DNA of 64,000 nucleotides from Nostoc foliaceum FACHB-393 (GTDB lineage: Bacteria; Cyanobacteriota; Cyanobacteriia; Cyanobacteriales; Nostocaceae), in contig NZ_JACJTD010000014.1 of NCBI RefSeq assembly GCF_014698505.1, positions 62,001 through 126,000 of the forward strand. The letters run 5' to 3'. Below are positions 4,273 through 21,223 of this stretch, one piece after another; the first letter of the stretch is position 1; each line of letters opens with the position of its first letter. Both the position numbers and the translations under genes were made by a program. Under the pieces are notes generated by a model that saw only the letters and a list, made by a program, of their open reading frames with translations, was not told the origin of the DNA and searched no databases.

Positions 4273-4479
4273 CTAGACTTCTAAGATTAAAGTGTGATCG
4301 GGGAGAACTAGGGGAGAAATCAGGGAAGCGATCGCCATACTGATGACGCAAGTCCCGTGACACTGCTTGCAGCACCTCTGGATCATGCTGGGAATCAAAC
4401 CCAAGCTTAATGCTTGCTTTCCAAGTTTTTCGGTTGGTTCCTCTAGACTCAGTTGGTCATGAAATACGTGTTCAGCCAT
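4273..4479 (-). CDS. Possible small Cys-containing peptide, unassigned
   Basis: This frame encodes 68 residues with a good ribosome binding site (GGGAGAT, 8 bases before ATG). The N-terminal part is acidic (LSLEEPTEK). The middle has clustered cysteines (RCCKQCHGTC) and is followed by a hydrophobic stretch. I do not recognise it. Its place, just upstream of the lanthipeptide exporter, would suit a peptide substrate, but there is no double-glycine site. Its last 15 codons overlap the conserved exporter promoter, so the real product may be shorter or the frame may be a decayed remnant. Confidence 0.35.
   Translation of the reverse strand: MAEHVFHDQLSLEEPTEKLGKQALSLGLIPSMIQRCCKQCHGTCVISMAIASLISPLVLPDHTLILEV
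4284..4316 (-). promoter_or_regulatory. Shared CTCCCC direct-repeat promoter, exporter operon
   Basis: On the minus strand: CTCCCC (4316-4311), TAGTT, CTCCCC (4305-4300), ten bases, TAATCT (4289-4284). The two hexamers are 11 bp apart, one helical turn. The second sits where a -35 box would be relative to the TAATCT -10 box. The predicted transcript starts about 45 bases upstream of the fusion protein ATG. The same layout recurs at 10736, 11248, 17732 and 19020. Confidence 0.7.
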
Positions 4480-4806
4480 ATTTGTTCATCTCCCTGCACT
4501 TTATTGAACTCTGGAAGAAGGTTCAACACCAATATTGCACTAATCAGCTTTAGGTGATTCACCATGTTTCATTTATTAGAAAATATCCGATTTAGGTTAA
4601 GAATAAAACTATACCAATTTAAGGGCAGAGTTTACACTTACCTCTTTCGATAGATTTTTTACTTAAGTGTCTTAACTGTCTTAACTGTCCTTGTGTCACT
4701 TTTTCAGCCATGCTAAGTTTCGGGGTGAAATGAGCAACTATGCAGAAAGTTACGCTCTAATTTCAAGTCTTAAACATAGAAATTCCCAAAACTAAGGTAA
4801 TAACAA
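4480..4806. other. Divergent intergenic region with 9-bp tandem repeats
   Basis: This 327-base AT-rich spacer lies between the leftward small frame and the rightward acyltransferase gene. At 4662-4688 three 9-bp units occur in a row, CTTAAGTGT, CTTAACTGT and CTTAACTGT, with a weaker fourth (CCTTGTGTC). They could be an operator for the acyltransferase gene, whose start lies about 120 bases away. No gene is seen here. Confidence 0.5.
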
Positions 4807-6345
4807 ATGGCAACACCTAACCAAGAACTTTATCCGGTTATCTTAATACATGGAATATCAGGATCTAGGCTCATCTCAAAACAAACAGTATTTCCAATAG
4901 AACCGCCACCAATCTCGAAAGTAGAAGAAGAATATCCAATTTGGCTGAATTTATTGATGAGTTCACGACCAGCACGACCAATACCAAATGACGATGCAGA
5001 AATTAACAGCAACCCTGAAAAAGTAACTTTAAAAACACTTGGATGGAATCTACCAGATGCTACAATTTCTTCTAGGACTGTCTCGATTACTCCGGCTCCG
5101 TGGTGGAAAACACAAATGACATTAGGGGTTGATGGTATAACCGCCTCCAATGACGAGGATAATCATCCTGTAGAGGGATTTAAAGCAATTGAGAGGATAG
5201 CTCCAGATACAGAGCCTGATTTTGACCCTGAGACTGGCAAAGACAATCGATATTTTGCCGCTTTAATTGAGAAGTTAGTAGAACAAGGATATGTGAAGAA
5301 TGAAAATAATAATCAAGGTAACTTGGTAGCTTTTCCATATGATTGGCGAGTATCACCAAAAGGTCTGAACGAAAAGTATGACTACTTTAATAAGCTCAAA
5401 AATGAAATACAAAAGCAACGCGAATATAACCAAAAACGTGTAGTGATAATAGCTCATAGTATGGGAAATCGAGTTACGCAGTATTTTCTACAGTGGGTTA
5501 AAAATAAAAAGGAGTTAGGGGAACAGTGGATACATGAAAATATAGAACGATATATAGCAGTTAGTCCACCGTGGCTTGGCGGCCCTTTAGCAATTCGTTT
5601 TCTAGGATCAGATGATCCAATAGTATTAGGAAAGGCAGCAATAAAGGATCTTAAATCAGTAATACAAAGCTATTCGAGTGTTCCTTGGCTATTGCCCATA
5701 ACAAAAGCGCCACAGGCATTTTTGAACACTGAACATTTTGCGTTTGTCAAAGAGAACAGCAAAGCTCCATCAACAATCAATAACTTTCAGCCAAAAACAA
5801 TCCAAGATATATTAACAGATGGAGGAGCCGAACAAACTACACTGAAATATCAGCAGGAGCATTATCAAAACGATAATTTGATACGTAGTATTGTGGACGG
5901 CGACGGGGGTAAGCTGGTAGAGTGCCCACCTGTTCAGAAATTAGATGTTATCTATGCATATGGCACACCTACACATGTCGGTGCATACTACATTTCTTCT
6001 GTAGAAGAGATAGACGGAGAACAAACAAAATCACTGAGAGTAGCAGCAGACCTGAACGACACAGGCGGAAACTTTCTTGTAAAAGAAGGAATAAGATTTG
6101 AAATAGAGGGTACTACAACACAACTGATAGATGGATCAACACATTCAGGAGATGGAATAGTTCCATACGGAAGCTTGACATATCACAAGCATTGGCAGAA
6201 AAACAAGTCGCTAAAAACCGAAATAGGAGATTACGGTTTTCAACTTAGCGATGCGGCTACATATCCAGGACATGAGGAAATTTTAAAGGTTAACGAAGGT
6301 ATTAATAAAATCCTGGAGTTGTTACGCAACGTGCATTTGGATTAA
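4807..6345 (+). CDS. LCAT/PDAT-like alpha/beta-hydrolase (putative acyltransferase or phospholipase)
   Basis: This 512-residue protein of the lecithin:cholesterol acyltransferase fold is predicted to move or release fatty acyl groups. Near the start, PVILIHGISGSRL matches the oxyanion-hole strand of the family. FPYDWRVSP followed by VVIIAHSMGNRVTQYFL supplies the nucleophilic serine (HSMGN). Near the C-terminus THSGDGIVPYGSL fits the family's GDGxVPxxSL histidine/aspartate region. No signal peptide is visible. It has no HIP1 octamer and is AT-rich with many AGA/ATA codons, unlike the LanM gene beside it, which may mean recent transfer. It lies between the lanthipeptide exporter and LanM, but on the opposite strand, so a tailoring role such as peptide lipidation is only a guess. 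Confidence 0.75.
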   Translation: MATPNQELYPVILIHGISGSRLISKQTVFPIEPPPISKVEEEYPIWLNLLMSSRPARPIPNDDAEINSNPEKVTLKTLGWNLPDATISSRTVSITPAPWWKTQMTLGVDGITASNDEDNHPVEGFKAIERIAPDTEPDFDPETGKDNRYFAALIEKLVEQGYVKNENNNQGNLVAFPYDWRVSPKGLNEKYDYFNKLKNEIQKQREYNQKRVVIIAHSMGNRVTQYFLQWVKNKKELGEQWIHENIERYIAVSPPWLGGPLAIRFLGSDDPIVLGKAAIKDLKSVIQSYSSVPWLLPITKAPQAFLNTEHFAFVKENSKAPSTINNFQPKTIQDILTDGGAEQTTLKYQQEHYQNDNLIRSIVDGDGGKLVECPPVQKLDVIYAYGTPTHVGAYYISSVEEIDGEQTKSLRVAADLNDTGGNFLVKEGIRFEIEGTTTQLIDGSTHSGDGIVPYGSLTYHKHWQKNKSLKTEIGDYGFQLSDAATYPGHEEILKVNEGINKILELLRNVHLD

Positions 6346-6396
6346 AGTTGGCGTAGATATAGCGGGGGGTAAATGAGCTTGGTAACATAATTAGGT

Positions 6397-6436
6397 AGTT
6401 TAAAAGCAGATGGTTAGTGCCATCTGCTTTTAAACT
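6397..6436. terminator. Strong bidirectional terminator
   Basis: A perfect 17-bp stem (6397-6413 with 6420-6436) closes a 6-base loop. It is flanked by A- and T-rich bases on both sides and lies between the convergent acyltransferase and LanM genes, so it can end both transcripts. Confidence 0.85.
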
Positions 6437-6521
6437 TTTATGAGAAAAACTTATTAGAAAAGTTAAAAAATCAATTATTTTTAACTTGGTCAAAAACTGT
6501 TTTTGGGTATGAACAACAAGC

Positions 6522-9500
6522 TCAATCCCACAACAATATTGAAGGCAAATTATTGTTAGCTAGACGCAGCAATTGATAACCAATTCCAGATATACCGGGT
6601 AAAAAGCCAGGATTAAATACAGAATTGGGTAAGTTGGGGAACAGTTGATAAGCTCCAGTTCGCTTGGCTCTAGCCACAACACTTGTTACATTCTGGTGAG
6701 CAATTTGATGCCAATCAGGACGGGAACAGATTTTTGCACCGACTAACAGCACTTCCGCTCGACCGAAGTTGCCACAGCATAAGTGATCGATCGCTTGTAA
6801 GCCAAAACTCTGAGTAGTTTGGAGAGCAATTTCTATTTCTTGTTGAATTTCCGGCGTTTCCACGATTCTCAAACTGCCTAAGCGTCCCAAACCAATGCCG
6901 GCTGCACCATGACACCACTTATTTGCAAAGTCAGGTTGTCCTGGTTGTCCCATTCTGCGGAAGTCTGGCCAGTTGGCAGTGGACGGGCAAAAGACGCTAC
7001 GTTCATACTCAATTCCTGCTAAACCTGCTTCTAAGAATTTGCCCTCTGAGGTGGCGGCATAAAGTCTGAGCAAGGCATAGGAAATGCCTGCGGCTCCATG
7101 AGAGAAGCCAGTTAAGGGCTTATCCCAATAAGTATGCCAAGCTTTGGGCGCACCGTTGTGGCTAACTTGACGGTTGATTAAATGTTGTCCACAGGCGATC
7201 GCTTTTTCTAATACGGTTGCTTCTCCTGTGGCTTGATGCAGGGATAATAACCCTAAAATTGCCCCAGCTGCTCCGCTCATAATATCCAAGTGTTCGTCGG
7301 CAGCAATTAGTTCTGGTGTCATCAACTCGGCTAATACTTGAGCGTCTGGCAACAGCGTTGCATCGTTGAGGAATTGACTAATTTTCACCAAGCTATAGAT
7401 CAGCGATCCTAAACCTGTTGCACCCCCAACGCCCATGAAACGAGCCATGCGTTCCCAAGTTTCTGGCTCAATGGTGTGGATTTGGCGACGCAGAGATTGC
7501 ACTGTCCTTAATGCTAAATCGCGGTAACGGGAATCACCAGTTACTTGACTCAGTGCAGCTAAAAACAAAGCAACTCCAGAGCGTCCGTCAGAGAGACAAT
7601 TATTCAATACTTGCAGTTGATATCGTTCGGCGCGAGGCACGAAGTCTAAGCCAATCCAGTTAACGCTGCCATCAGGATCAGAAATGGCTCTAGTTTCCAG
7701 TTGAGTGGCGATTTCTTTGGCTTCGGCAATAAATTGTTCCGAATTTAGCAACGGTAACGATTCGCCTTGCCATTGCCCACCTTGGCGGCTGGAGGTGGTT
7801 GCAATCTTGGCATCGAAGGAGCCTTGAATAATCGCTACTTGTCGAGCTAAGTCGGTTTCATCCAGAGATTGTAACTGGTTGAGCAGGTCTTGGTAACTGG
7901 ATTGCTTGAAGTAGTTGGGAATGGAAGAAGAACCGTTTAAACTCAGTTCATCAACCACCGCGCTAGCCGTGAAGAAGGGAATATCCAATTGTTCCATCGC
8001 TCGGAGTTCTGCGCTCAAAACAGGAAAGGCATTCGGTTTTTCCTGAGCAACTAGAAAAGCACGACTGAGAACATCGAGTTGAATACTGTAATCTACGCCG
8101 TGTTTGAGGTAATCGGGTGCTAAAGCTTTTTGGAGGATGATGCCATAAATCCGGGTGTTGCGGAAGATAAAGCGCACCTGCTGATTTTGCATAGCAGATA
8201 GCAAACTTTGGCCTGAAAGTAAGAAATCTTTGTGCGCCATCAGAAAGCGATACATCTGCTCAAATCCAGTGGTGATTTGTAGTTGATAATCGCTTGGAGA
8301 CAGAGCAACTCCATTCAAGAAGGGCACATTTTTCGTAATCGGCAAGGTTACAGGCTCAGACAACAGGTGCATATTATCTGTATTAATGTTCTGCCAGCGC
8401 GGGACTTTGCGGGGAGATAATCGGGGATCTGTGCTGCCTAGCCCGCTAATATCATAAGCGACACTGCGATCGCCACTAAAGTCCCAACGCGGTAAAAGTC
8501 CGGTGCGGAGTACGGAATCCCAAAATTGTCGTGTGGCGGTTGTTTCTACATCTTGGGTAAGTGGTGAGTCTTCAATGAGGTTCGGTTCATGGTGCAGCAG
8601 CGTTTCCATGTCAATCAGCACCAAATGTTCACCATTGGCAATTAAGTTTTCGTAATGGCAATCTGTTCCCCGCAAAGCATAAAGCACACACAACAACATC
8701 CCAGAACGCTGATAGAATCGTTTCGCAGCTGCTTCATCAACACAAGGCAACTGTTCAACATGTTCTACCCAACCGTAACCGTTGCGTTCTAGCACCTGAA
8801 TGACTTTAAAATCTAAAAGATTGCTGTGTTGATTGCACCAATCCAAAAATTGGTTAAAGACAACCTCTAATCCTAAATCTTTGGGTTTATAAACAAGTTT
8901 AAGTCCAGACTCAAAGGTAAGCGAAATCACCGTTCGTCCGCGTTTGTGTGCATCGGAAATGGATGTTTGAATTTCGGCAACTTTGTTTTGATAAAATGGG
9001 ATAATTCTTTCATCAAACATTTGTTGAATATCTGTCCTATCTGCAACTAAACGTTCGAGAAATTCAGCAGTGAACTCAACCCAAAAATTGACTGCTGTTG
9101 CCACTAACCGACCGAGAACTGGATACTTCTGGAAGAAGGTCAGCATTCCATCTTCTAGGAGTTGATTGACGAACTTGGTGTAATGAGTGTTATTATTTCC
9201 TGTCTCCAGTCCTAGTAAGCCGAGCAAGCTTTGACCAAAGGGACGCACCTGAGAAAATTCAAAATCTAATGTCTTTGTGCAAATTCCTGCTAATCGTTTC
9301 AGTAGACCACGTTCTAGAGAACTGTAAGCGTTGTGGGAAAGAATCGATAAGGGAAGACAATCTTGGGTAAACTGACTGTTGCAGCGAGTCAGTAATTGCT
9401 GTCTGGCTACTAAGATAGTAGGCAAAAGGATATCTTCAAAGGTGATCGGATTTTGTGAATCGATTGGTAGAAATACTTCAGTTGCAGAATTGAATCCTGT

Positions 9501-9845
9501 AGCGGTTTGGATGATTTGCTGCAAGGTTTGTGCCCATTCAGGCAAAGGTTGATCGGCAAGTAACTCAATGGCTCCCAATCTAGAACTAACAGTATCGAGG
9601 TCTAGCCCTTCCCACTCTAAGCGTTTGTGTAACGTATCCAATTTACCTTCTGCTGCAACTTCGCACCAGCGATGTCTACGACGGTTAATTTCTTGTTCGT
9701 TGACTTGATCGCCATTAATAGCAAATCTGCTTTCATCAAGACGTTCCCAGAGAAAGCTAGCATTGGCTGCGATCGCTCTTAAATCGTCTGATGTTTTCTG
9801 TTGGGATAAGCGAACAACTTGTTGAACCATAGCTGGATTTCTCAT
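6522..9845 (-). CDS. lanM: Type 2 lanthipeptide synthetase LanM, CCG group
   Basis: This 1107-residue bifunctional enzyme dehydrates Ser/Thr in the precursor core and adds Cys thiols to form lanthionine rings. The N-terminal DUF4135 dehydratase (about 150-600) contains KLVYKPKD and RGTDCHYENLIANG, followed by LVLIDMETLLHHEP, which hold the phosphate-transfer and metal residues. The C-terminal LanC-like cyclase (about 730-1100) shows GFSHGAAGISYALL, WCHGAAGIGLGR (Cys978) and LCCGNFGR (Cys1023/Cys1024). Having CCG where most LanMs have CHG places it in the three-cysteine zinc group that includes the broad-substrate enzyme ProcM, which acts on Nif11-leader precursors such as those at 10.4-11.2 kb. 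Start 9845 is the first ATG; ATG 9833 is an alternative. The shared CTCCCC promoter was not found in front of it. Confidence 0.95.
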   Translation of the reverse strand: MRNPAMVQQVVRLSQQKTSDDLRAIAANASFLWERLDESRFAINGDQVNEQEINRRRHRWCEVAAEGKLDTLHKRLEWEGLDLDTVSSRLGAIELLADQPLPEWAQTLQQIIQTATGFNSATEVFLPIDSQNPITFEDILLPTILVARQQLLTRCNSQFTQDCLPLSILSHNAYSSLERGLLKRLAGICTKTLDFEFSQVRPFGQSLLGLLGLETGNNNTHYTKFVNQLLEDGMLTFFQKYPVLGRLVATAVNFWVEFTAEFLERLVADRTDIQQMFDERIIPFYQNKVAEIQTSISDAHKRGRTVISLTFESGLKLVYKPKDLGLEVVFNQFLDWCNQHSNLLDFKVIQVLERNGYGWVEHVEQLPCVDEAAAKRFYQRSGMLLCVLYALRGTDCHYENLIANGEHLVLIDMETLLHHEPNLIEDSPLTQDVETTATRQFWDSVLRTGLLPRWDFSGDRSVAYDISGLGSTDPRLSPRKVPRWQNINTDNMHLLSEPVTLPITKNVPFLNGVALSPSDYQLQITTGFEQMYRFLMAHKDFLLSGQSLLSAMQNQQVRFIFRNTRIYGIILQKALAPDYLKHGVDYSIQLDVLSRAFLVAQEKPNAFPVLSAELRAMEQLDIPFFTASAVVDELSLNGSSSIPNYFKQSSYQDLLNQLQSLDETDLARQVAIIQGSFDAKIATTSSRQGGQWQGESLPLLNSEQFIAEAKEIATQLETRAISDPDGSVNWIGLDFVPRAERYQLQVLNNCLSDGRSGVALFLAALSQVTGDSRYRDLALRTVQSLRRQIHTIEPETWERMARFMGVGGATGLGSLIYSLVKISQFLNDATLLPDAQVLAELMTPELIAADEHLDIMSGAAGAILGLLSLHQATGEATVLEKAIACGQHLINRQVSHNGAPKAWHTYWDKPLTGFSHGAAGISYALLRLYAATSEGKFLEAGLAGIEYERSVFCPSTANWPDFRRMGQPGQPDFANKWCHGAAGIGLGRLGSLRIVETPEIQQEIEIALQTTQSFGLQAIDHLCCGNFGRAEVLLVGAKICSRPDWHQIAHQNVTSVVARAKRTGAYQLFPNLPNSVFNPGFLPGISGIGYQLLRLANNNLPSILLWD

Positions 9846-10368
9846 GATGGAGTTAAAAGGTAAGTATCAATTCTGGTCTACGTCTCAATAGTTGGCATTA
9901 AGAACAATAGCGTTCGTCTGAAACAAGTTTTAAATTAAGTACTAATTACGTAAATATCTAGGCATAAATAAATTTCAAGTTTGTAGTAAGGACTTTAGTC
10001 CTGATAATCCTTGCTCTGAGCGATAAATCGCTCACTACAAACTAGGAGCTTATTTTATATTTAATTATCTTGGCATATTCTCGCGTAGTTGGCTATTTTA
10101 GAGTAGGCTTTAAATTTGTGACAACATAATCGTATTTTCTCACGTTTGGTGATAGTAATTGTTAATTGAATTCCCTCTATACCTTGATCAAAAAAGCAAA
10201 GAGGGAATCTGTTATGCAGCATCTCTTTCTGCGTTAAGCCTCAGTACCAAGCATGGAATTTATCCAAATTAAAATATTGGGAAAGTTGGATATAAAAAGC
10301 TGTTTTAGAAAAACAACCTGACCTTGGAGGCTATAATGCCATAGACAAAGAGAAGCTACATACCTTTT
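9846..10368. other. Intergenic region between precursors and LanM
   Basis: This 523-base spacer holds a palindromic repeat at 9978-10041 (TTTGTAGTAAGGAC ... CTCACTACAAA, with an inner GAGCGATAAATCGCTC hairpin). It also has an inverted repeat TTCCCTCT/AGAGGGAA (10171-10178 with 10200-10207, 21-base loop) that could end the precursor transcript. No coding frame is convincing. Confidence 0.6.
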
Positions 10369-10650
10369 TTAGCAGTGTCCGCCACCACAGCCTTCTGTAT
10401 GACATAGCTTAGGCGCACTATCAGCCATCAATCCACCACTAACACTAAGTAATTCTTCTTCACTCAGTTCGTTGGAGTCTACAAAAGTCAGTTCTGCCAG
10501 CATTTGAGAGATGGCTTCAACTGTGAAGTTATAACCTTTCTCTGCACTAGCGATCGCTAGTACTTTGATGGCTTCTGCTTGGTTGGTTGCTGCTTTAATT
10601 TGCTGTTGTAGTTGTGCGTTTTGAAGCAATTCTTTAATTTGGTGTAGCAT
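10369..10650 (-). CDS. Nif11-leader lanthipeptide precursor 1
   Basis: This 93-residue precursor has a Nif11-like leader (MLHQIKELLQNAQLQQQIKA onward, about 73 residues) ending in LLSVSGG. The core is about 20 residues: LMADSAPKLC then HTEGCGGGHC. The core has Ser5 and Thr12 as dehydration sites and Cys10, Cys15 and Cys20 as ring donors, so one Cys more than acceptors. I chose ATG 10650, not an upstream frame start, because GGAG lies at the right distance, the Nif11 domain begins here, and the promoter lies between the two starts. LanM and the C39 exporter in the same region are the likely processing partners. It is a near-duplicate of the gene at 10871, about 500 bases away. Confidence 0.93.
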   Translation of the reverse strand: MLHQIKELLQNAQLQQQIKAATNQAEAIKVLAIASAEKGYNFTVEAISQMLAELTFVDSNELSEEELLSVSGGLMADSAPKLCHTEGCGGGHC

Positions 10651-10735
10651 ACGTTTGTTCTCCGTTTTTGTTGACTTATTAACACAGCAGAGATGTGCAC
10701 TTGTTTTGGTTGGTGTTCTCTGCTTTTCTGATTTG

Positions 10736-10768
10736 AATTTAGAGATAAATAGGGGAGAAATAGGGGAG
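10736..10768 (-). promoter_or_regulatory. Shared CTCCCC direct-repeat promoter, precursor 1
   Basis: On the minus strand: CTCCCC (10768-10763), TATTT, CTCCCC (10757-10752), ten bases, TAAATT (10741-10736). The spacing is identical to the exporter promoter. The predicted start of transcription is about 80 bases before the precursor ATG. Confidence 0.7.
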
Positions 10769-10842
10769 ATAGTTACAATTGCAGAAAAGTTTTTCAGCAC
10801 AGATTAATTGGAGGATTGAAAACTAGGTATTAGTTATTTCTA

Positions 10843-10875
10843 CCCCTACCCTCTGGCGCACTATCAGCCATCATT
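10843..10875 (-). pseudogene. Remnant of a third lanthipeptide precursor core
   Basis: Directly after the Cys20 codon of precursor 2 the DNA matches the start of a precursor core again: GGTGCAATGATGGCTGATAG then TGCGCC, which would read GAMMADSAP in another frame. Precursor 2 therefore runs into a core fragment, and its C-terminal SVQ appears to be read from that scrap. This is best explained by a deletion between tandem precursor copies. Confidence 0.7.
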
Positions 10876-11161
10876 GCACCGAGCAGTGTCCGCCACCACA
10901 GCCCGCTGTATGACATAGCTTAGGCGCACTATCAGACATCGCTCCACCACTAACACTAAGTAATTCTTCTTCACTCAGTTCGTTGGAGTCTACAAAGGTT
11001 AGTTCGGCCAGCATTTGAGAGATGGCTTCAACTGTGAAGTTATAACCTTTCTCTGCACTAGCGATCGCTAGCACTTTGATGGCTTCTGCTTGGTTAGTTG
11101 CTGCTTTGATTTGCTGTTGCAGTTGAGCGTTTTGAAGCAATTCTTTAATTTGGTGTAGCAT
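10871..11161 (-). CDS. Nif11-leader lanthipeptide precursor 2
   Basis: This 96-residue precursor has a leader nearly identical to copy 1, again ending in SVSGG. The core is AMSDSAPKLC then HTAGCGGGHC and a short tail SVQ. Compared with copy 1 it gains Ser3 and a Ser in the tail, and has Ala for Glu at position 13, so it offers up to four dehydration sites for three Cys. The start at ATG 11161 has the same GGAG box as copy 1. Gene plus promoter form a roughly 500-base duplication unit. The tail appears to derive from fusion with a third copy at 10843-10875. Confidence 0.93.
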   Translation of the reverse strand: MLHQIKELLQNAQLQQQIKAATNQAEAIKVLAIASAEKGYNFTVEAISQMLAELTFVDSNELSEEELLSVSGGAMSDSAPKLCHTAGCGGGHCSVQ

Positions 11162-11247
11162 ACGTTTGTTCTCCGTTTTTATTGACTTATTGATACGGCA
11201 GAGATTGTACGCTTGTTTTGGGCGGTGTCCTCTGCTTTTCTGATTTG

Positions 11248-11280
11248 AATTTAGAAAGAAATAGGGGAGAAATAGGGGAG
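11248..11280 (-). promoter_or_regulatory. Shared CTCCCC direct-repeat promoter, precursor 2
   Basis: On the minus strand: CTCCCC (11280-11275), TATTT, CTCCCC (11269-11264), ten bases, TAAATT (11253-11248). It is duplicated together with the gene. Sequence around it (GTGCTGAAAAA) is also shared with copy 1. Confidence 0.7.
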
Positions 11281-11498
11281 ATAAGTGCAATTACGGAAAA
11301 ATTTTTCAGCACAGATTAATTCGGGGATTAGTTATTTATCCCCCAGCCCCTCTCTATGATGCTGATATCTGCATTACTGCTGTAATATTTGAAGCAAATA
11401 TGTAGTTTTGCTGTAGTTAAATATCCTAATGATCAACTAAAGATACAATCGCTATACCAAATTGATTGATCTATCTAGGAGATATTAAGGAGTTGGTG

Positions 11499-14400
11499 AT
11501 GAGCGCTAAACAATTGGAGCAGGTAAAGCAATTGCAAGCTACCCTCACCAAAATGGAAGTAACATTAGGTGCGATCGCTGATGCTGTAGTCTGGGTAGGA
11601 GAAGACCGATGCATCCAATGGTGCAATCCTAGCTTTGAGGGTTTGGTGAATCAACCCCACAACACTGTCTCCGGTGCGAAGTTAACTGACTTGCTACCCC
11701 TAGCACAAGCAGGACAACCAGTTGCTTTACCAGCCTATCCTGATGTGCGGATACTCAATGGTGAGTACGAAACAGCAAATTACCAGTTCCAGCAGGGTGA
11801 GCGGACTTTAACACTACAAATTTCCGGTAACTGTAGCGGACTGACTGATGATCAATGTGCAATATTGGTGATTCGGGATATCACGCTGGCGAAACAAACT
11901 CAAGAATCCTTACAAGAGATTGAGGAGCGTTTGCAGACATTAATTAACGCTACACCCGATATTATCTGTTTAAAAGACGGCGAGGGAAAATGGTTGCTGT
12001 CAAACCAAGCTAACCTGGAATTTTTACAGCTACAAGGCGTTGATTATCAAGGCAAAACAGATTCAGAACTAGCAGAATTTAGCAATTTTTATCACGATGC
12101 TTTGCTCAACTGCGACAAAACAGATGAACAAGCTTGGCAGTTGGGATGTGTGCATCGAGTAGAAGAAGTTATACCCCGACCTGATGGGACAGTGACCAGT
12201 GTAGATATGATTAAAGCTCCCCTATTTCACCAGGATGGTAGACGCAAAGCTCTGGTGGTTTTAGGGCGGGATTTGAGCGATGTCTATCGACAAGCTACGC
12301 AACGCAAACAAACTCAAGTAGCCTTAGAAAACTCTTTGTCTCTATTAAGCGCTATCTTTGAATCGATTCAAGACGGTATATTAGTAGTTGATAGTTTAAG
12401 TAATATCACTAGTTACAACCAAAAGTTCTTAGAAATGTGGTCAATTCCACCAGAACTTTTGACAGAACCAGATCATCCTCAGCGGCTAGCGTATCTGGCA
12501 AACCAGCTAAAAGACCCGGATGTGTTTTTGCAACGAGTCCGAGAATTATACTCACAGCCAGAGCTAGTTAGTTACGACTCATTAGAATTGTGCGATGGCA
12601 GAGTATTTGAGCGCTATTCCTGTCCTCAGCGCATCGGCGAACAGATTATTGGTAGAGTGTGGAGTTTCCGCGACATTACCCAACGCCAAAGGGCAGAAGA
12701 AGCACTGCGACAAAGTGAGCTACAATATCGCAGTATTTTTGAAGCTATTAATGATGGACTATTTATTACTGAAATAGAAACTGAAAAAGTCGCTGAAGTT
12801 AATCCTGCGGCTTGTCAGATGCACGGTTACTCTTATGAAGAATTTCTCACTTTACATCCATCTGTTTACATTCACCCAGACTCACATTCTGTTTTCTTAG
12901 AGTTTCTCAAAACAACGCAATCTGGTGAGCAATTTTATGGGCCAGCAGTTGATATCTGCAAAGATGGCACTTTGATAGATGTGGAAGTTAAAGGGACAAC
13001 TTGCATTTACAACGGTAAGCCGCACATCTTAGCGATAGTGCGCGACATTACTGCTCGCAAACGCACTGAGGAAGCCTTGCGACAAAGCGAAGTCCAGTAT
13101 CGGGATTTGGTGCAAACAGCCAACTGCATCATTCTACGTTGGGATGGTAACGGCGACATCATATTTTTAAATGATTATGGTCAAAGGCTTTTTGGTTTCG
13201 ATTTAGATGAAATTATCGGGCGTAATGTTATTGGCACAATTGTTCCAGAAACAGAAACTTCTGGGCGCGACTTACAGACATTAATGGTTGATATTTGTCA
13301 ACATCCAGAAAACTATCTATTCAACGAAAATGAGAACTTATGCCAAAATGGCGATCGCGTCTGGATAGTCTGGGCAAATAAACCCATATTAGATGCACAA
13401 GGAAACTTAATCGAAATTCTTTCAGTAGGCACCGATGCTACAGAACGCAAACGCGTCCAAGCAGCCCTCCAAGAAAGTGAGTTAAAATTCCGCAGCATTG
13501 TTGAAAATGCCAATGATCTGATATTTGTCCTCTCGCCAGAGGGAATTTTTACTTATCACTCGCCGAATGTAACTGCAACTATGGGTTACAGCCTGGAGGA
13601 AATCGAAGGTCATTCGGTGGTGGAGTTTACCAAACCTGAAGATTTAGAAATTAGTGTTGCCGCCTTACAAAAAGCTCTAACTGGGGAAAAGCTGACTGAT
13701 ATTGAAGTGCGATTGCGACACAAAGACGGTAGCTGGCGATGGTTCAACTTTAACACTTCCACAATCAACACTCCCAGTGGTGAAATTGCGATCGCGGGTG
13801 TGGGACGCGACATCACAGAACGCAAGCAAGCAGAAGAAGCCTTGCGTCGTAGTGAAATGAAATACCGCAACATCTTTGAAAATTCCCAAGTGGGGATTTT
13901 CCGCACCTGCCAAAAAGATGGATTGATTATCGATGCTAATCAACGTGGTGCTGAGATATTAGGTTTTACCTCTGCTGCTGACTTAATTGGCAAGTATTTT
14001 ACAACTGACTTATATCTCAATCCAGACGATCGCGTGCAGATGTTAGCAGAGTTAGAAGAAGACGGTGAAGTTCGCAATTTTGAAGTAGCACTGCGACGCT
14101 TGGATGGATCTGTTGTTTGGGTACTGTTGTCACTCCGTCTCAACGCAGAAGAATCCTGTTTGGATTCTGTCTTTACAGATATTAGCGATCGCAAACGGCA
14201 AGAACAGGCTTTACGCTTAATTGTTGAGGGCACAGCAGCAAAAACAGGTGATGAATTTTTCAATTCCTGCGTTCGTTACCTTGCCGAAGTATTGCAAGTT
14301 CAATATGCTCTAGTCACTGAGTTTGGTGATGAGCCAAAAACTAGAGTCCGCACTTTAGCATTTTGGTGTGGCGGGGCTATTAACGAAAACTTGGAGTATG

Positions 14401-17069
14401 AATTGCAAGGTACTCCTTGTGAACATACCTTGGAAGGTAACCTCTGTCACTACCCTCAAGCAGTACAAGCCGCTTTCCCCCAAGATGCAGATTTAGTGAA
14501 GATGAATGCCGAGAGTTTTTTTGGTGTTCCTCTAACTAGTTCATCCGGCGAAATCATCGGACATCTAGCAGTGATCGATGTCAAACCAATGAAGCACGAT
14601 CCGGGACGGGAACTCATTCTTAAAATCTTTGCTGCCCGTGCCGGTGCTGAATTGGAACGCAAACAGGCAGAAGCCGCCCTACAGCAAAGTGAGTTAAAGT
14701 TTCGCACTATCGTTGAAAAGGTCAACGATATGCTGTTTGTCATCAATCCTGATGGAGTATTTAACTATATTTCTCCTAATATATTGAACACTACAGGATT
14801 TGCCCCCAGCGAAATGGAAGGTAATTCCTTGGCATCCTTTACTCATCCCGATGATGTGCCAATATGTTTTGAAGCCGCCCAAAGTATCCTGACAACAGGT
14901 GAGGGAATTTCGGGAACTGAGTACCGCGCCAAACATCGAACTAAAGGCTGGGTTTGGCTAACTGCTAATGCAGTCCGCACACAAGATGCCCAGGGTAATT
15001 TTCAGATTGTGGGTGTAGCTCGTGATATTAGCGATCGCAAACAAGCAGAGGAAGCTTTGCAACGTCGGACTCAAGCCGAAAGTTTACTCAGTAGCATTTC
15101 TCGCCAATTTATTGACCAAAATTTAGAAACAGCAATTAATTTTACACTTCGAGCGATCGCTGAGTTTATTGATGCTGAACACAGTTGCATCTTTGAATGC
15201 TCCCAAGATCAACGTGAATTCCACCTCATCCATGAATGGTGTGGTGAAGATGTTGCACCATTGATTGATATTGCAAAAGGTTCACCTGTGGAAGTTTTCC
15301 CCTATTTCTACGAACCGATTCTCCGTGGTAGGCATAGACAAATCTCTTGTGTGGAGAATTTACCACCCCATCTACCTGAGCGAAAAGTTTTTGAAAGTAT
15401 GTCGTTTCAGTCTTTACTAGCAGTGCCGATGGTTCATGCTGGCAAAGTAGTGGGATTTGTTGGTGCAGCGATGATTCACTGCTCGAAAACCTGGAACCAA
15501 GAAGATATTAATTTACTGAAACTGGTAGGTGAAATAATTGCGATCGGTCGAGCTAGGCATCAAGCAGAAGAAGCGTTGAGAATTGCCAAAGAAGCCGCCG
15601 AAACTGCCAACCGTGCCAAAAGTGCTTTCCTCGCTAACATGAGTCACGAACTCCGCACACCTTTGAATGCGATTCTGGGTTTTTCTCAGTTAATGGAACG
15701 AGATACTAGTCTCAACTCAAACCAACGTGAATCTTTAGCTACCATTAACCGCAGTGGAGAACACTTGCTCAACCTGATTAACGATGTCCTAGAAATGTCC
15801 AAAATTGAAGCTGGACAAATCATTTTCAACCCTGAAGACTTCGACCTTTATCTGCTGTTGCAAACATTACAAGAAATGTTTCAGGTAAGGGCACAAACAA
15901 AGCAATTGTTCCTCAGATTTGAAATTGCTCCCAATCTTCCCCGTTATATCCAAACAGATGAGGGAAAACTCCGCCAAGTTCTTATTAACCTTTTGGGTAA
16001 CGCCGTCAAGTTTACTCAAACAGGGGGAGTAACTTTACGAGTCAGATTAGGGAGTGGGGAGCAGGGGGAAAACTCCTCTCCTCTGCCCCCCGCACCCTGC
16101 CCCTCTGCCTCTTCCCCATCTCTTCACTTTGAAGTCGAAGACACTGGACGGGGAATAGCACCAGAAGAAATGAATAACCTGTTTCAGCCTTTTGTCCAGA
16201 CCACAAGCGGTATCCAAACCAAGGAGGGAACTGGACTAGGACTGACTATCAGCCGTCAATTTGTGCGGTTACTGGGGGGCGATATTCACTTGACGAGTAG
16301 CGTTAGACAAGGATCTACTTTTAGTTTTGAAATCCAAGTGAATTTAGCCGCAGCTTTAAAAGCTACACCAAAATTGAGTAAGGGACGTGTACTCAAGCTG
16401 GCAGCAGACCAACCATCTTACCGTGTTCTGGTAGTGGATGACCGCAAAGAAAACCGCGATTTAATTGTGCAACTTCTTGGTAGCATTGGCTTTGAGATTA
16501 AAGCTGCGAATAATGGACAAGAAGCGATCGCTATTTGGCAAACCTGGCAACCTCACCTAATTTGGATGGATATGCGGATGCCTGTAATGAATGGTTACGA
16601 TGCAACAAAAGAGATTAGAGCCAGGGAAAGAAATACAAATGCAAATCACCGCACTATAATTATTGCCCTAACCGCCAGTGCTTTTGAAGAACAACAGGCA
16701 AGCATCTTAGCCGCAGGTTGCAACGACTTGGTTCGTAAGCCATTCCGGGAGCAGGTAATTTTTGAAAAGATAGCTGAATATTTGCAGGTGCGTTATGTTT
16801 ACGCAGAAGAAAGTCGTGAAGAAACAACAGACAACAACCTAGAAAATATTCAATTTTCCATCTTGGATCTTCGCTCTGCAATTACCGTTATGCCTGCCCA
16901 ATGGGTAACAGAACTTAATCAGGCAGCTATTGAAGTCGATGCTGAAAGAATTTTCCAACTAATTGAGCAAATTCCACCAACACATTCTGCTTTGGCAGAA
17001 AAATTGGCAAATTTAGTCAGAAGCTTCTGCTTCGATGAAATTATCAGTCTAACGGAGGATAACTTATAA
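11499..17069 (+). CDS. Multi-PAS/GAF hybrid sensor histidine kinase
   Basis: This 1856-residue soluble-looking hybrid kinase (no clear membrane segment) has about eight PAS domains in series, one GAF after the seventh PAS (LIVEGTAAKTGDEFFNSC onward) and a second GAF (SISRQFIDQNLETAINF) before the kinase core. HisKA has MSHELRTPLNAILGF, the ATPase has NLLGNAVKF, DTGRGI and GTGLGLTISRQF, and the C-terminal receiver has VVDDRKENRD, the acceptor in MDMRMPVMNGYD, and RKPF. ATG 11499 is preferred over a frame start at 11466 because AAGGAG stands at 11487-11492. A low-complexity insert (SSPLPPAPCPSASSPS) lies in the ATPase domain before the G1 box. It is adjacent to the lanthipeptide precursors but divergent, and no input signal can be named. 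Confidence 0.95.
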   Translation: MSAKQLEQVKQLQATLTKMEVTLGAIADAVVWVGEDRCIQWCNPSFEGLVNQPHNTVSGAKLTDLLPLAQAGQPVALPAYPDVRILNGEYETANYQFQQGERTLTLQISGNCSGLTDDQCAILVIRDITLAKQTQESLQEIEERLQTLINATPDIICLKDGEGKWLLSNQANLEFLQLQGVDYQGKTDSELAEFSNFYHDALLNCDKTDEQAWQLGCVHRVEEVIPRPDGTVTSVDMIKAPLFHQDGRRKALVVLGRDLSDVYRQATQRKQTQVALENSLSLLSAIFESIQDGILVVDSLSNITSYNQKFLEMWSIPPELLTEPDHPQRLAYLANQLKDPDVFLQRVRELYSQPELVSYDSLELCDGRVFERYSCPQRIGEQIIGRVWSFRDITQRQRAEEALRQSELQYRSIFEAINDGLFITEIETEKVAEVNPAACQMHGYSYEEFLTLHPSVYIHPDSHSVFLEFLKTTQSGEQFYGPAVDICKDGTLIDVEVKGTTCIYNGKPHILAIVRDITARKRTEEALRQSEVQYRDLVQTANCIILRWDGNGDIIFLNDYGQRLFGFDLDEIIGRNVIGTIVPETETSGRDLQTLMVDICQHPENYLFNENENLCQNGDRVWIVWANKPILDAQGNLIEILSVGTDATERKRVQAALQESELKFRSIVENANDLIFVLSPEGIFTYHSPNVTATMGYSLEEIEGHSVVEFTKPEDLEISVAALQKALTGEKLTDIEVRLRHKDGSWRWFNFNTSTINTPSGEIAIAGVGRDITERKQAEEALRRSEMKYRNIFENSQVGIFRTCQKDGLIIDANQRGAEILGFTSAADLIGKYFTTDLYLNPDDRVQMLAELEEDGEVRNFEVALRRLDGSVVWVLLSLRLNAEESCLDSVFTDISDRKRQEQALRLIVEGTAAKTGDEFFNSCVRYLAEVLQVQYALVTEFGDEPKTRVRTLAFWCGGAINENLEYELQGTPCEHTLEGNLCHYPQAVQAAFPQDADLVKMNAESFFGVPLTSSSGEIIGHLAVIDVKPMKHDPGRELILKIFAARAGAELERKQAEAALQQSELKFRTIVEKVNDMLFVINPDGVFNYISPNILNTTGFAPSEMEGNSLASFTHPDDVPICFEAAQSILTTGEGISGTEYRAKHRTKGWVWLTANAVRTQDAQGNFQIVGVARDISDRKQAEEALQRRTQAESLLSSISRQFIDQNLETAINFTLRAIAEFIDAEHSCIFECSQDQREFHLIHEWCGEDVAPLIDIAKGSPVEVFPYFYEPILRGRHRQISCVENLPPHLPERKVFESMSFQSLLAVPMVHAGKVVGFVGAAMIHCSKTWNQEDINLLKLVGEIIAIGRARHQAEEALRIAKEAAETANRAKSAFLANMSHELRTPLNAILGFSQLMERDTSLNSNQRESLATINRSGEHLLNLINDVLEMSKIEAGQIIFNPEDFDLYLLLQTLQEMFQVRAQTKQLFLRFEIAPNLPRYIQTDEGKLRQVLINLLGNAVKFTQTGGVTLRVRLGSGEQGENSSPLPPAPCPSASSPSLHFEVEDTGRGIAPEEMNNLFQPFVQTTSGIQTKEGTGLGLTISRQFVRLLGGDIHLTSSVRQGSTFSFEIQVNLAAALKATPKLSKGRVLKLAADQPSYRVLVVDDRKENRDLIVQLLGSIGFEIKAANNGQEAIAIWQTWQPHLIWMDMRMPVMNGYDATKEIRARERNTNANHRTIIIALTASAFEEQQASILAAGCNDLVRKPFREQVIFEKIAEYLQVRYVYAEESREETTDNNLENIQFSILDLRSAITVMPAQWVTELNQAAIEVDAERIFQLIEQIPPTHSALAEKLANLVRSFCFDEIISLTEDNL
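16049..16122. repeat. C/G-rich low-complexity insert in the kinase gene
   Basis: A GGGGAGCAGGGGG run followed by a run of CCCCxTGCC units encodes GEQGENSSPLPPAPCPSASS in the ATPase domain, between the strand after the N box and the DTGRGI box, a surface loop. It has the same character as the stretches at 1161-1200 and 29554-29621. Confidence 0.75.
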
Positions 17070-17168
17070 TTCGTAATTCGTAATTAATCAAGTGAGATTT
17101 AATTAGCGATCGCACTCCTAATTTTAGAAGTTTTTTTGATCAATAAAAAGTAGGAAATTGAATAAAAG

Positions 17169-17215
17169 TAAGCGTTTAATTTGTATGGGCTGTAACCATT
17201 CAGATTAAACGCTTA
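17169..17215. terminator. Inverted repeat between convergent genes
   Basis: TAAGCGTTTAAT (17169-17180) pairs perfectly with ATTAAACGCTTA (17204-17215) around a 23-base loop. It lies between the ends of the kinase gene and the VOC gene. It lacks a clear T-run, so the terminator role is inferred from position. Confidence 0.5.
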
Positions 17216-17222
17216 GAGTTGA

Positions 17223-17705
17223 CTAATTTGTGACTAATGCTGGTTCTGCCAAAAAATATTTCAGATTTTCTTGCTGAGTGGCAAATTTCAAATACTGAGA
17301 TGCCATTTCTGGTGTTAACAGTTCTATCATTAATCTGTTTTCCACCCAGAACTCAATCACATCAAAGAAAGAGTCGCGGTTACAGCGCACTACACGCCAA
17401 CCTTCACGGATACCGATTTGTTCAATTTCTTTCTGGGTAATGGGCACAGAAATAGCTGCATGAATATCTGTATACATAGAGGTAATTGCAGTACGGACAA
17501 ATACGCATTCATCATCATTTTGACCAGGTTCAAGTTGAGAGCCTAAAGGATAAAGTTCAATGGCTGTACCGTATTCATCAAAAGGTATAACCATATAGCT
17601 TCCTGGGTTAGGAGGAAAGGGAACAGCTTGCGCTTTTAAGATTTCCGCCAGAACTTGAGCAACATGGCTAGGGTTTCTAACAGCAATTGAAATATGGTGA
17701 ATCAT
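17223..17705 (-). CDS. VOC-fold (glyoxalase-like) protein
   Basis: This 160-residue protein starts with MIHHISIAVRNPSHVAQVL, the usual opening strand and helix of vicinal-oxygen-chelate proteins. The matching half ends in FDVIEFWVENRLMIELLTP. His4 and the Glu in GTAIELYP and MIELLTP are candidate metal ligands. The substrate is unknown. Its promoter (17732-17764) shares the CTCCCC architecture with the lanthipeptide precursors and exporter, which suggests that it is made under the same conditions and might act on, or protect from, the same pathway. It is convergent with the kinase gene. Confidence 0.75.
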   Translation of the reverse strand: MIHHISIAVRNPSHVAQVLAEILKAQAVPFPPNPGSYMVIPFDEYGTAIELYPLGSQLEPGQNDDECVFVRTAITSMYTDIHAAISVPITQKEIEQIGIREGWRVVRCNRDSFFDVIEFWVENRLMIELLTPEMASQYLKFATQQENLKYFLAEPALVTN

Positions 17706-17731
17706 GGGATAACCTCAGTTCGATATTTTGT

Positions 17732-17764
17732 AGATTAAAAAACAATCGGGGAGAACTAGGGGAG
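17732..17764 (-). promoter_or_regulatory. Shared CTCCCC direct-repeat promoter, VOC gene
   Basis: On the minus strand: CTCCCC (17764-17759), TAGTT, CTCCCC (17753-17748), ten bases, TAATCT (17737-17732). Transcription would start about 20 bases before the ATG at 17705. Confidence 0.7.
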
Positions 17765-17813
17765 CAAGGAAGGGTGGGGAGAGAAAAAGCTTAACTCTTG
17801 AATGCTTATTAGC

Positions 17814-18341
17814 TTATTGAGGTCGCCCGTAATGACTTCGCCCCTTACCGTCGGCAGTCTCAAGTACTAGAACTTGCTGCCCGTACTCATCCGTCTCAAT
17901 CGACCACTGATAAGTCTCAGCCTTTGCTGTATTGCGGCTGGAGTAGGTGCGCCCGCTATTGCAGATTTGCCCTTTGGATGTGCTGTCACTGGGTTGGAAA
18001 GTCAGGCGTTGAGCCTCAATCTTAACTTTGCCTTTTTCCTCTATGAAGAGGTTAGATGCACAGTTGTAAGTGTTGATTTGAAGCAGCCTATTTCGCTTGT
18101 AGTTTCCGTTAGATGCGAGTTGAAATTGATCGCTAGAACCGTTCGGGGCTGCTGACTGCCCTGTGTAACTATCTTGATATTGGATGGACGAGATTCGACC
18201 ATATCGCCACTCACCCTGGAGTTCAGCAGGGACTCCAGTGTCGTTTTTACCCGCCTGACTCGCGCTTGGGTAAAAAACAAGGCTAGCGGTGAGGCCCAAA
18301 CTCAGGGAACTAGTAGCGAAAAGGCGGACAGCTTTTAGCAT
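17814..18341 (-). CDS. Secreted protein of unknown function
   Basis: This 175-residue protein has a signal peptide: MLKAVRLFATSSLSLGLTAS, a hydrophobic core, and a cut likely after ASQA. The mature part is polar with strands typical of a small beta-sheet protein (LQGEWRYGRISSIQYQD, YQWSIETDEYGQQVLVLE) and two cysteines (CASNLF, GQICNSG) that may form a disulphide. I do not recognise the family; a lipocalin-like barrel is possible. Upstream frame starts (TTG 18413, ATG 18374) would add residues before the signal peptide, so ATG 18341 was chosen, although its ribosome binding site is weak. It lies between the two promoter-sharing genes but lacks the CTCCCC motif. Confidence 0.7.
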   Translation of the reverse strand: MLKAVRLFATSSLSLGLTASLVFYPSASQAGKNDTGVPAELQGEWRYGRISSIQYQDSYTGQSAAPNGSSDQFQLASNGNYKRNRLLQINTYNCASNLFIEEKGKVKIEAQRLTFQPSDSTSKGQICNSGRTYSSRNTAKAETYQWSIETDEYGQQVLVLETADGKGRSHYGRPQ

Positions 18342-18503
18342 AGAATAGGGTTGCTTGTTTGTTATTGAGTACATAAGACTTTTGTAGAAATTAATTAATT
18401 TATTTATCAACAAAGACGATTTAGAATGCGAAGTCTGCGTGTTTATATATAGCCCGTCTCAGTAGGGACGTACAGATGTGCGCCCTGCATCCAAATGAAA
18501 AGC

Positions 18504-18956
18504 TCACGCAAGAAACTGCAATCCATATTTGTTCAAAACAGGCTGTACTTTTTCCATGTTTAGCGATGAGCTATCTGCTACTTGACCCATTTCTTCATAA
18601 AAGTTCTTCGCGCCCTTAGGTGAAATTAAAACCAGAAATTTAGCAGTAGCAGAACAAATTTTGAAGGCATGTGGTGCATTGTGGGGAATGTTAACGAAAA
18701 AGCCTGGTGATGCCAAAATTGTTTCTGTACCAACTTGGATTTCTAGTTCTCCTTCTAGAACATAAAATGCTTCTTCCCAAGGGTGAGTATGCAGTGGCGG
18801 CCCATTTTCCTCTGTATCTGTAATTTCGTAAACTGACCAAGCTTGATTTGTCTCTTCACCGATTGCTTTTGTTGTGAACCGTGAACCAAGGATTGAGAAT
18901 TGATTACCTTCTCCTGGTGCAAGAATAGTTGGTTTACGTATCGTTGAACTTTGCAT
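18504..18956 (-). CDS. Cupin-domain protein
   Basis: This 150-residue single-domain cupin has motif 1 in [20 protein letters not shown] (two His, one Glu) and motif 2 in [11 protein letters not shown] (His), enough for a bound metal. The family includes dioxygenases, isomerases and binding proteins, and the substrate cannot be told. The promoter at 19020-19052 belongs to the shared CTCCCC set, linking the gene with the lanthipeptide locus and the VOC gene. Transcript leader is about 55 bases long. Confidence 0.85.
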
Positions 18957-19019
18957 ACAAGTTACTCCTTGTTCTGTAATTTGGTAAGTTTGATTTACAA
19001 ACTTGATTTGATGTTTTTA

Positions 19020-19052
19020 AGATTAAAAATTAATCGGGGAGAACTAGGGGAG
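19020..19052 (-). promoter_or_regulatory. Shared CTCCCC direct-repeat promoter, cupin gene
   Basis: On the minus strand: CTCCCC (19052-19047), TAGTT, CTCCCC (19041-19036), ten bases, TAATCT (19025-19020). It is nearly identical to the VOC and exporter promoters, including the GAT after the second hexamer. Confidence 0.7.
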
Positions 19053-20742: not shown

Positions 20743-20851
20743 TAATTAGCTTATAACTGCTTAATTATCCCCTGCTTTTCCCCGATTTAGCTTTAGAATA
20801 TCTCAAGAGCGATCAAGCAAATCAGCACTTACATTGTGCAAGAGTGTCATT

Positions 20852-21223
20852 ATGAACAGAAATATCTTGATTGTTGATGATGAAGAAGATGTGCGGGCGA
20901 TCGCAAAGTTGGGATTAGAAATGGGTGCGGGCTGGAATGTTTTCACGGCTAGTTCTGGTCAAGAAGCCTTAAACGTAGCTGTTAAGCATAAACTAGATGT
21001 CATCTTACTAGATATGATGATGCCTGATATGGATGGGCGTGCAACTCTACAACAACTGAAAGCTAACCCCGCAACTAAAAAAATTCCAGTAATTTTATTA
21101 ACAGCCAAATTTCAGCAATCGGATCGAGAGAGGTTTACTGATTTGGATGTTGCTGCTATTTTTGCCAAGCCTTTCCGTCCATTGAAACTGGCAGAGCAAA
21201 TTAGTGAAATACTGGGCAGTTAG
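20852..21223 (+). CDS. Single-domain response regulator
   Basis: This 123-residue CheY-like receiver has no output domain. Acidic pocket residues are in LIVDDEEDV, the acceptor Asp is in VILLDMMMPDMDGRAT, and the switch Thr and Lys are in ILLTAKF and FAKPFRP. ATG 20852 is preferred to a TTG 18 bases earlier because the domain begins with MNRNILIVDD. It follows the kinase at 19162 and probably receives phosphate from it. Confidence 0.92.
   Translation: MNRNILIVDDEEDVRAIAKLGLEMGAGWNVFTASSGQEALNVAVKHKLDVILLDMMMPDMDGRATLQQLKANPATKKIPVILLTAKFQQSDRERFTDLDVAAIFAKPFRPLKLAEQISEILGS

Follow-up and report, generated by a model that had tools for sequence, protein, structure and literature searches.

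A tandem CTCCCC promoter element and its probable RcaC-like regulator in Nostoc foliaceum and related cyanobacteria

The window analyzed here, a stretch of 64,000 nucleotides (nt) from Nostoc foliaceum FACHB-393 (contig NZ_JACJTD010000014.1, positions 62,001 to 126,000), carries genes for an exporter, a class II lanthipeptide synthetase, and two precursors of a ribosomally synthesized and posttranslationally modified peptide (RiPP), together with a VOC-like gene, a cupin gene, and genes for two hybrid kinases and a single receiver. Five promoters of this locus have the same tandem CTCCCC hexamers at a fixed distance from a −10 box. These five sites and a weaker sixth are quite probably class II activator promoters of one regulon under an OmpR/PhoB-type regulator (C46:56689-59019), the gene for which lies outside the window, 2981 to 5311 bases to the left of its first position.

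A text search of the window for CTCCCC-N5-CTCCCC-N10 followed by TAATCT or TAAATT returns five exact 33-nt matches, all on the minus strand, and the coordinates and strands given in an earlier reading of the DNA alone (the sequence-only reading) are exact to the base. No sixth exact CTCCCC-N5-CTCCCC is present on either strand of the window. As that reading stated, three sites share the spacer TAGTT and GAT after the second hexamer, and the two precursor sites have TATTT, with TAT after the second hexamer. The pattern with TAA included and two mismatches allowed has five matches in the window, compared with a mean of 0.03 and a maximum of 1 in 100 dinucleotide shuffles; with the reversed pattern also silent in the source genome, chance clustering of the sites was dropped. 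The ATG follows the end of the −10 box after 26 nt in the VOC-like gene, 52 nt in the exporter, and 63 nt in the cupin gene, within the 20 to 80 bases originally proposed, and after 85 and 86 nt in the precursors, slightly beyond that range. The window sites have no −35 box. The second hexamer occupies its place, and CCTAGT or CCTATT, supplied by the motif itself, stands 17 nt before the −10 box. All five listed sites are real, and the list missed the sixth, before the single-receiver gene, which a weight matrix recovers without any match of 8 bits or more in the reversed window; it also turned up as a 3-mismatch match of the motif search (C46:82767).

The source genome (8.87 Mb) contains 11 copies of CTCCCC-N5-CTCCCC, five of which are in the window, and no copy of the reversed pattern. 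A TANTT spacer is found in eight of the 11, namely, the five window sites and those on C20, C58, and C157; the C20 and C58 sites precede copies of a small secreted-looking protein, and the C157 site has the precursor leader sequence in common. The copies on C94, C105, and C142 have neither a TANTT spacer nor a correctly placed −10 box and were excluded. Weaker sites are present on C151 and C167 (one mismatch) and on C126 (two mismatches). The background is high at two mismatches, as shown by 21 matches in all (8 exact, 2 with one mismatch, and 11 with two) versus 13 for the reversed pattern, and C126 alone was kept of the 11 two-mismatch matches because it has GAT, TA at a spacing of 10, and a downstream gene start. 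The genome-wide scan that the sequence-only reading proposed as a check was extended to 217 genomes of the family. The core patterns, which set no condition downstream of the hexamers and do not ask for the −10 box, give 148 sites in 52 of the 217 genomes and 15 of 56 genera, versus two for the reversed pattern; within the genus, the core CTCCCCTANTTCTCCCC is present in 31 of 53 genomes. A scan of named genomes gives at least 80 stretches with the motif. Among the matches listed, all records are named as cyanobacteria, and the stretches include Aphanothece, UBA8803, Limnofasciculus, and Myxacorys; by eye, the Aphanothece site precedes a relative of the cupin gene and the Myxacorys site a relative of the precursors.

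Because 13 of the 148 places are repeats or lack sequence, merging of identical contexts leaves 135 distinct ones, which form 30 clusters by downstream open reading frame (ORF), three of which consist of one site with no ORF identified downstream. With each cluster given a weight of 1, the spacing from the second hexamer to TAnnnT is exactly 10 nt in 27.0 of the 30 clusters, and no other offset exceeds 3.2. This count is tempered by the fact that the clusters are not fully independent, since the same promoter flanks recur in some of them (those of the small membrane protein and the HigA-like frames, and the precursor leader cluster and three others). Apart from the hexamers and the −10 box, most positions carry little information. 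Placement was counted for 133 of the 135 contexts, in the loci read: an ORF starts within 300 nt downstream of 123 sites and on the other side of 35. Five of the 133 sites lie deep inside an ORF (at least 80 amino acids [aa] long, more than 150 nt from its start), compared with 71% of random positions, so the motif is far from being as frequent inside genes, the outcome that the sequence-only reading had named as fatal to its proposal. The half-sites are direct and 11 bp apart, the −35 box is replaced, and the distance to the −10 box is fixed, as expected of class II promoters; the likeness to OmpR-type sites that had been drawn from five examples is thus borne out across many genomes. On this sequence evidence, the tandem hexamer motif is a real promoter element.

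In G019, G002, G020, and G055 (L146, L158, L192, and L198), sites with the flanks of the small-membrane-protein promoter now precede a HigA-like antitoxin frame by 210 to 232 nt, as judged by eye, as if the original gene behind them had been lost.

The membership of the regulon was assessed with a weight matrix built from motif sites and with orthologs collected by homology in fetched loci. The presence of one or more sites was the reason for fetching these loci, and locus ends truncate some of the genes; the rates therefore apply to such loci. A site precedes the cupin gene in 25 of 25 orthologs, the VOC-like gene in 27 of 28, the single-receiver gene in 23 of 24, and the exporter gene for HlyD in 21 of 23. 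The single-receiver sites come closest to testing the motif independently, as they lie outside the original finding and, except for G136, outside the matrix. Sites are less regular before the precursors (23/35) and the secreted protein between the cupin and VOC-like genes (7/25), and the exporter ABC gene, downstream in its operon, has one in 1 of 20 orthologs. Within the same loci, no site was found before LanM (0/24) or the PAS kinase gene (0/22) or on the hybrid kinase's own strand (0/30). The biggest clusters of downstream genes encode HlyD (22 sites), VOC-like proteins (20), cupins (16), Nif11-type precursors (14), and a small secreted protein (11); others contain COQ4-like, cyclopropane-synthase-like methyltransferase, small membrane, acetoacetate-decarboxylase-like, RTX-type, and grasp-like proteins and more precursors. 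Apart from the proteins scanned with Pfam or NCBIfam, these names were assigned by reading the sequences. The tie between the cupin and VOC-like genes and the RiPP locus holds across many genomes. However, the term "lanthipeptide regulon," used by the sequence-only reading, is too narrow for 30 downstream clusters in which the cupin, VOC-like, receiver, and exporter sites are best kept, the precursor sites vary, and LanM has none; a pure RiPP regulon was dropped on the LanM result.

Table 1. Promoter sites and genes of the locus, with positions in the window unless otherwise stated
Feature	Position	Strand	Basis or remark
Site 1, tandem CTCCCC and −10 box, cupin promoter	19020..19052	-	49.6 bits
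Site 2, VOC-like gene promoter	17732..17764	-	51.8 bits
Site 3, promoter of precursor gene 10871-11161	11248..11280	-	46.9 bits
Site 4, promoter of precursor gene 10369-10650	10736..10768	-	46.9 bits
Site 5, exporter operon promoter (HlyD, then ABC)	4284..4316	-	44.3 bits
Sixth, weaker site, single-receiver gene promoter	20767..20799	+	23.6 bits
Cupin protein, 150 aa, regulon member	18504..18956	-	Pfam Cupin_2
160-aa protein, VOC by the sequence-only reading only	17223..17705	-	No Pfam or NCBIfam match at E ≤ 0.001
Secreted-looking protein between cupin and VOC	17814..18413	-	No site of its own in the source genome
RiPP precursor, 96 aa, leader near-identical to its neighbor's	10871..11161	-	ORF start, length, sequence
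Nif11-leader RiPP precursor, 93 aa	10369..10650	-	TIGR03798, 34.6 versus cutoff 32.3
LanM class II lanthipeptide synthetase	6522..9845	-	TIGR03897
Exporter HlyD subunit	2792..4231	-	TIGR03794
Exporter peptidase/permease/ATPase, downstream of HlyD	407..2629	-	TIGR03796
Second NHLM ABC subunit, encoded between regulator and exporter a little left of the window	L279 17508-19997	-	TIGR03797
Multi-PAS/GAF hybrid kinase, 1867 aa, recurring neighbor	11466..17069	+	Pfam; 22 genomes
REC-PAS-HisKA-HATPase hybrid histidine kinase, probable input	19162..20742	+	Pfam
Single-domain response regulator, RcaF/RfpC-like relay position	20852..21223	+	Pfam Response_reg; 24 genomes

The export system is of the NHLM type, with matches to TIGR03794, TIGR03796, and TIGR03797 all above cutoff; the second ABC subunit has no site of its own. 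The NHLP label of the sequence-only reading suits the exporter and does not extend to the precursor leader. In the one precursor scanned (93 aa), TIGR03798 was the only match at E ≤ 0.001, with no NHLP-type (nitrile-hydratase-like) leader, and Pfam Nif11 falls just under its cutoff (23.3 versus 23.8). Nostolysamide, as described in passages of PMC13060382, is another Nif11-leader Nostoc lanthipeptide, with a 25-residue core containing four Cys residues. Both precursor mRNA leaders (window 10651-10735 and 11162-11247, minus strand) contain a 7-bp stem, GCAGAGA...TCTCTGC, that is kept in 14 sequences except for two single mismatches and is also found before nonprecursor genes (C157, C151, and L116); the stem is possible and not proven, since no pair has changed on both sides. 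The exporter promoter lies in the end of a small ORF (window 4273-4479, minus strand) that looks truncated: its start resembles, by eye, a 71-aa protein in the loci of three relatives, and it then diverges. Between the exporter and LanM, an LCAT/lipase-like protein is encoded (window 4807-6345, plus strand), with a relative in the fetched loci of one other genome.

Among the recurring neighbors of the sites, one was recognized as DNA-binding, the 776-aa protein introduced above, and Pfam confirmed it. The sequence-only reading had likened the sites to those of OmpR-type response regulators; a candidate regulator of this type exists, outside the window, where it was invisible to that reading. 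Its domain order is REC, Trans_reg_C winged helix, Hpt, REC, REC, and GGDEF, with Response_reg, Trans_reg_C, Hpt, and GGDEF above their Pfam cutoffs, and its place in the OmpR/PhoB family follows from Response_reg at residues 5 to 115 and PF00486 at residues 148 to 222. D51 and K101 of the first receiver, H303 of the Hpt domain, and D547 of the third receiver are present in all 54 full-length orthologs; in the same set, the second receiver lacks Asp at its site. The GGDEF motif is degenerate in 54/54, so an output by cyclase activity is unlikely, and a role in cyclic di-GMP signaling via this end was dropped. The CdgK-CdgS system of Anabaena, as described in passages of PMC9927289, is a different one. 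The PAS/GAF kinase and the hybrid kinase were also set aside as regulators, having no DNA-binding domain by Pfam. Features legible in the sequences themselves, namely, a conserved motif with fixed spacing that is placed before genes, and its co-occurrence, frequent linkage, and co-divergence with the regulator gene, indicate that this OmpR/RcaC-like response regulator probably reads the CTCCCC motif.

At 65% identity or more, the regulator is found in 44 of the 217 genomes (with partial matches in G040, G103, and G138). Motif and regulator are both present in 41 genomes, the regulator alone in 3, the motif alone in 11, and neither in 162 (P = 2e−30). The corresponding numbers are 26, 1, 5, and 21 within the genus of the window (P = 4e−9) and 12, 8, 3, and 33 per genus at 56% identity or more (P = 6e−5); these Fisher tests treat related genomes as independent. 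Of the 41 genomes with both, 22 have the regulator gene no more than 12 kb from an exact site, and in the other 19 it is farther away or on another contig, so the co-occurrence is not due to linkage alone. Of the 157 family genomes for which no regulator of at least 56% identity is listed, 80 were searched for VOC homologs; 39 have one, and 33 of these 39 have the exact motif nowhere in the genome. The four motif genomes with names from beyond the Nostocaceae, Aphanothece, UBA8803, Limnofasciculus, and Myxacorys, all match the N-terminal half of the regulator at 63 to 71%, the Myxacorys match with a stop inside.

A second form of the motif accompanies diverged regulators. Fifteen genomes with an ortholog of 56 to 64% identity have no exact CTCCCC motif. 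A search with up to three mismatches in the source genome and the 18 genomes with an ortholog and no exact motif gives 66 matches versus 25 for the reversed pattern; with a control that is not silent, single 3-mismatch matches prove little. However, a recurrent form, CTTCCCTAGTTCTTCCCGAT or CTTCCC..CTTCTCGAT, stands near the regulator gene in most genomes with a 56 to 64% ortholog; no match was found at three mismatches or fewer in G206 and G089, and one poor match was found in G181. As the CTTCCC..CTTCYC form was learned from this search, the test is where else it occurs. Across the 217 genomes, the exact form has 27 sites in 15 genomes, with a reversed control of 0, and it is absent from the 52 CTCCCC genomes and from the 44 genomes that have a regulator match of at least 65%. 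It is present in 11 of the 15 diverged genomes, lying 5 kb or less from the regulator gene in 10 of them, and in G111, G200, G202, and G206 a CTTC-type site (zero or one mismatch) directly precedes the regulator gene. Residue 192 of the recognition helix is Ser in 40 of 54 orthologs and Ala in 14, Ala marking those of the CTTC-type group, whose regulators form one clade (support, 0.969) in a tree from an alignment with stops written as X. Ala192 also occurs in two distant paralogs outside this clade. The coincidence of residue and motif is only suggestive, because it represents a single event on the tree.

In G130 (C167:196742-218652; L363, L392, and L393), ten CTTC-type sites (zero to two mismatches) lie in about 22 kb adjoining the regulator gene, before HlyD-like, COQ4-like, dehydrogenase-like, and other frames. 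This stretch is perhaps a whole secretion or natural-product island under the CTTC operator.

Several observations weigh against the 776-aa protein as the reader of the motif. The motif with the start of the −10 box was absent from all 16 genomes from other families of the order, no site precedes the regulator gene itself in the six genomes of the CTCCCC group that were checked, and the diverged genomes G181 and G089 have no convincing site. G046, a CTCCCC genome with a Ser ortholog, has an Ala paralog (65%) in the CTTC clade and no exact CTTC site. G018, G080, and G103 have a regulator match of at least 65% and no exact motif, and all three have sites with one or two mismatches. Conversely, 11 genomes have the motif without an ortholog of at least 65%: G136 has one of 59% overall and 76% over the DNA-binding half; G180 and G055 have only the N-terminal part (71% and 81%); G002 keeps a piece of the first receiver (77% identical); and G019, G006, G059, G110, G167, G211, and G212 have no such ortholog or remnant. 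The G002 genome also retains one exact site and an incomplete VOC homolog with a stop, which is expected if regulator and target decay together and looks like joint decay of the regulon.

The seven genomes without a remnant could be accommodated if the sites were read by some other DNA-binding protein, with the linked regulator a mere passenger. Candidates would be an OmpR-type paralog encoded elsewhere, of which these genomes have many (19 matches at E ≤ 1e−40 in the source genome), or an alternative sigma factor recognizing a nonstandard −35 sequence; the CTTC-type sites of G146, G163, G196, and G204, genomes without a listed ortholog, also count against our assignment and fit the same idea. 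We regard it as unlikely, because the linked regulator and the motif diverge together and a site precedes the linked regulator itself in four CTTC-type genomes. Also against this alternative, winged-helix dimers binding in tandem usually have an 11-bp direct repeat as their operator, and the −10 box is of an ordinary kind. Two of the seven exceptions, G211 and G212, have TAACAC or TAACAT for TAnnnT before a transporter-like frame and may be chance matches, although the T-ended box of G212 would fit TAnnnT.

Slightly less likely still is that the same regulator acts as a repressor, the hexamers covering the −35 region and blocking polymerase. The sites do overlap that region, and RcaC, as described in passages of PMC8256508, activates or represses depending on site placement. 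However, the five window sites read CCTAGT or CCTATT in the −35 place, so an ungoverned promoter would be weak, and the spacing is fixed to the base. Nostoc genomes are rich in short repeats, and a longer leader is common to the promoters of the precursors and of certain other genes, yet a short repeated or mobile element lying before genes by happenstance is close to refuted by the mostly low information outside the hexamers and −10 box and by sites that are oriented, rare deep in genes, and conserved in position among orthologs.

Under the preferred reading, in which the 776-aa regulator activates these promoters, its winged helix would bind both CTCCCC half-sites head to tail, at about −39 to −23, with CTCCCCTAGTTCTCCCC as the operator sequence for its DNA-binding domain, and the bound regulator would recruit RNA polymerase to the TAATCT or TAAATT −10 box. 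The single receiver adjoins the hybrid kinase, is also present in 24 of 30 kinase-bearing genomes in the fetched loci, and would probably be phosphorylated by the kinase; the phosphate may then pass to the Hpt domain and on to the first receiver of the regulator, as in RcaE-RcaF-RcaC. The weak site before the single-receiver gene would close a feedback loop. Binding, an activating instead of a repressing role, the relay order, and the signal are inferences; relay and feedback are suggested by gene order and by the analogy with RcaE-RcaF-RcaC.

The L box is a direct hexamer repeat, and RcaC contains an Hpt domain. The system of Fremyella diplosiphon chromatic acclimation resembles the present one in having a kinase, a single receiver, and a multireceiver winged-helix regulator; according to passages of PMC8256508, RcaE uses RcaF to phosphorylate RcaC, which binds the L boxes of target promoters. 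The regulator described here has the RcaC-type architecture of a winged helix, three receivers, an Hpt domain, and a single-receiver partner, a likeness of architecture only. Unlike in the Rca system, the operator is CTCCCC or CTTCCC, the targets are secretion, RiPP, and small-enzyme genes rather than phycobilisome genes, the window kinase is a REC-PAS-HK protein with no photoreceptor domain among its Pfam matches, and the regulator ends in a degenerate GGDEF. The RfpA-RfpB-RfpC system of far-red acclimation, as described in passages of PMC4390838, likewise has a single receiver (RfpC) and a DNA-binding protein (RfpB) in its target cluster; it differs in its phytochrome input and photosynthesis targets, and RfpB has two receivers in some strains, the C-terminal one missing in others. 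The pho box is an 11-bp repeat placed at −35. PhoB, as passages of PMC4415409 describe, places winged helices head to tail on direct repeats in contact with sigma70, which is the geometry proposed here; however, the half-site is different, the regulator has four further domains, and at 259.6 bits it falls short of the PhoB equivalog TIGR02154 (cutoff, 296.2). Its first 221 residues match the RppA-type response regulator NF041734 (301.4 bits; cutoff, 250), a model of 229 positions covering a receiver and winged helix, which here make up the front third of a 776-aa protein.

Literature searches listed no paper that, judged by its entry, describes this operator or its regulator. The parts are of known kinds, and the combination, operator, and target set appear new. 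On balance, we favor a third RcaC-like cyanobacterial phosphorelay, serving secreted peptides, secreted proteins, and small accessory enzymes rather than light harvesting, with a kinase, a single receiver that is itself under the operator, and a regulator of six domains. In this reading, the change from CTCCCC to CTTCCC goes with that from Ser192 to Ala, so that in Nostocaceae and several other cyanobacteria, operator and regulator would be recognizable as a pair.

To our knowledge, little is known about the switches that govern cyanobacterial RiPP and secretion clusters. The operator is sharp enough for a text search and names candidate targets in dozens of genomes, and it ties the cupin, VOC-like, and other unexplained genes to what may be one program. 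The pairing of motif and residue 192 may represent a natural example of an operator and a recognition helix changing together, and silent lanthipeptide clusters of Nostoc might be awakened by way of the proposed regulator.

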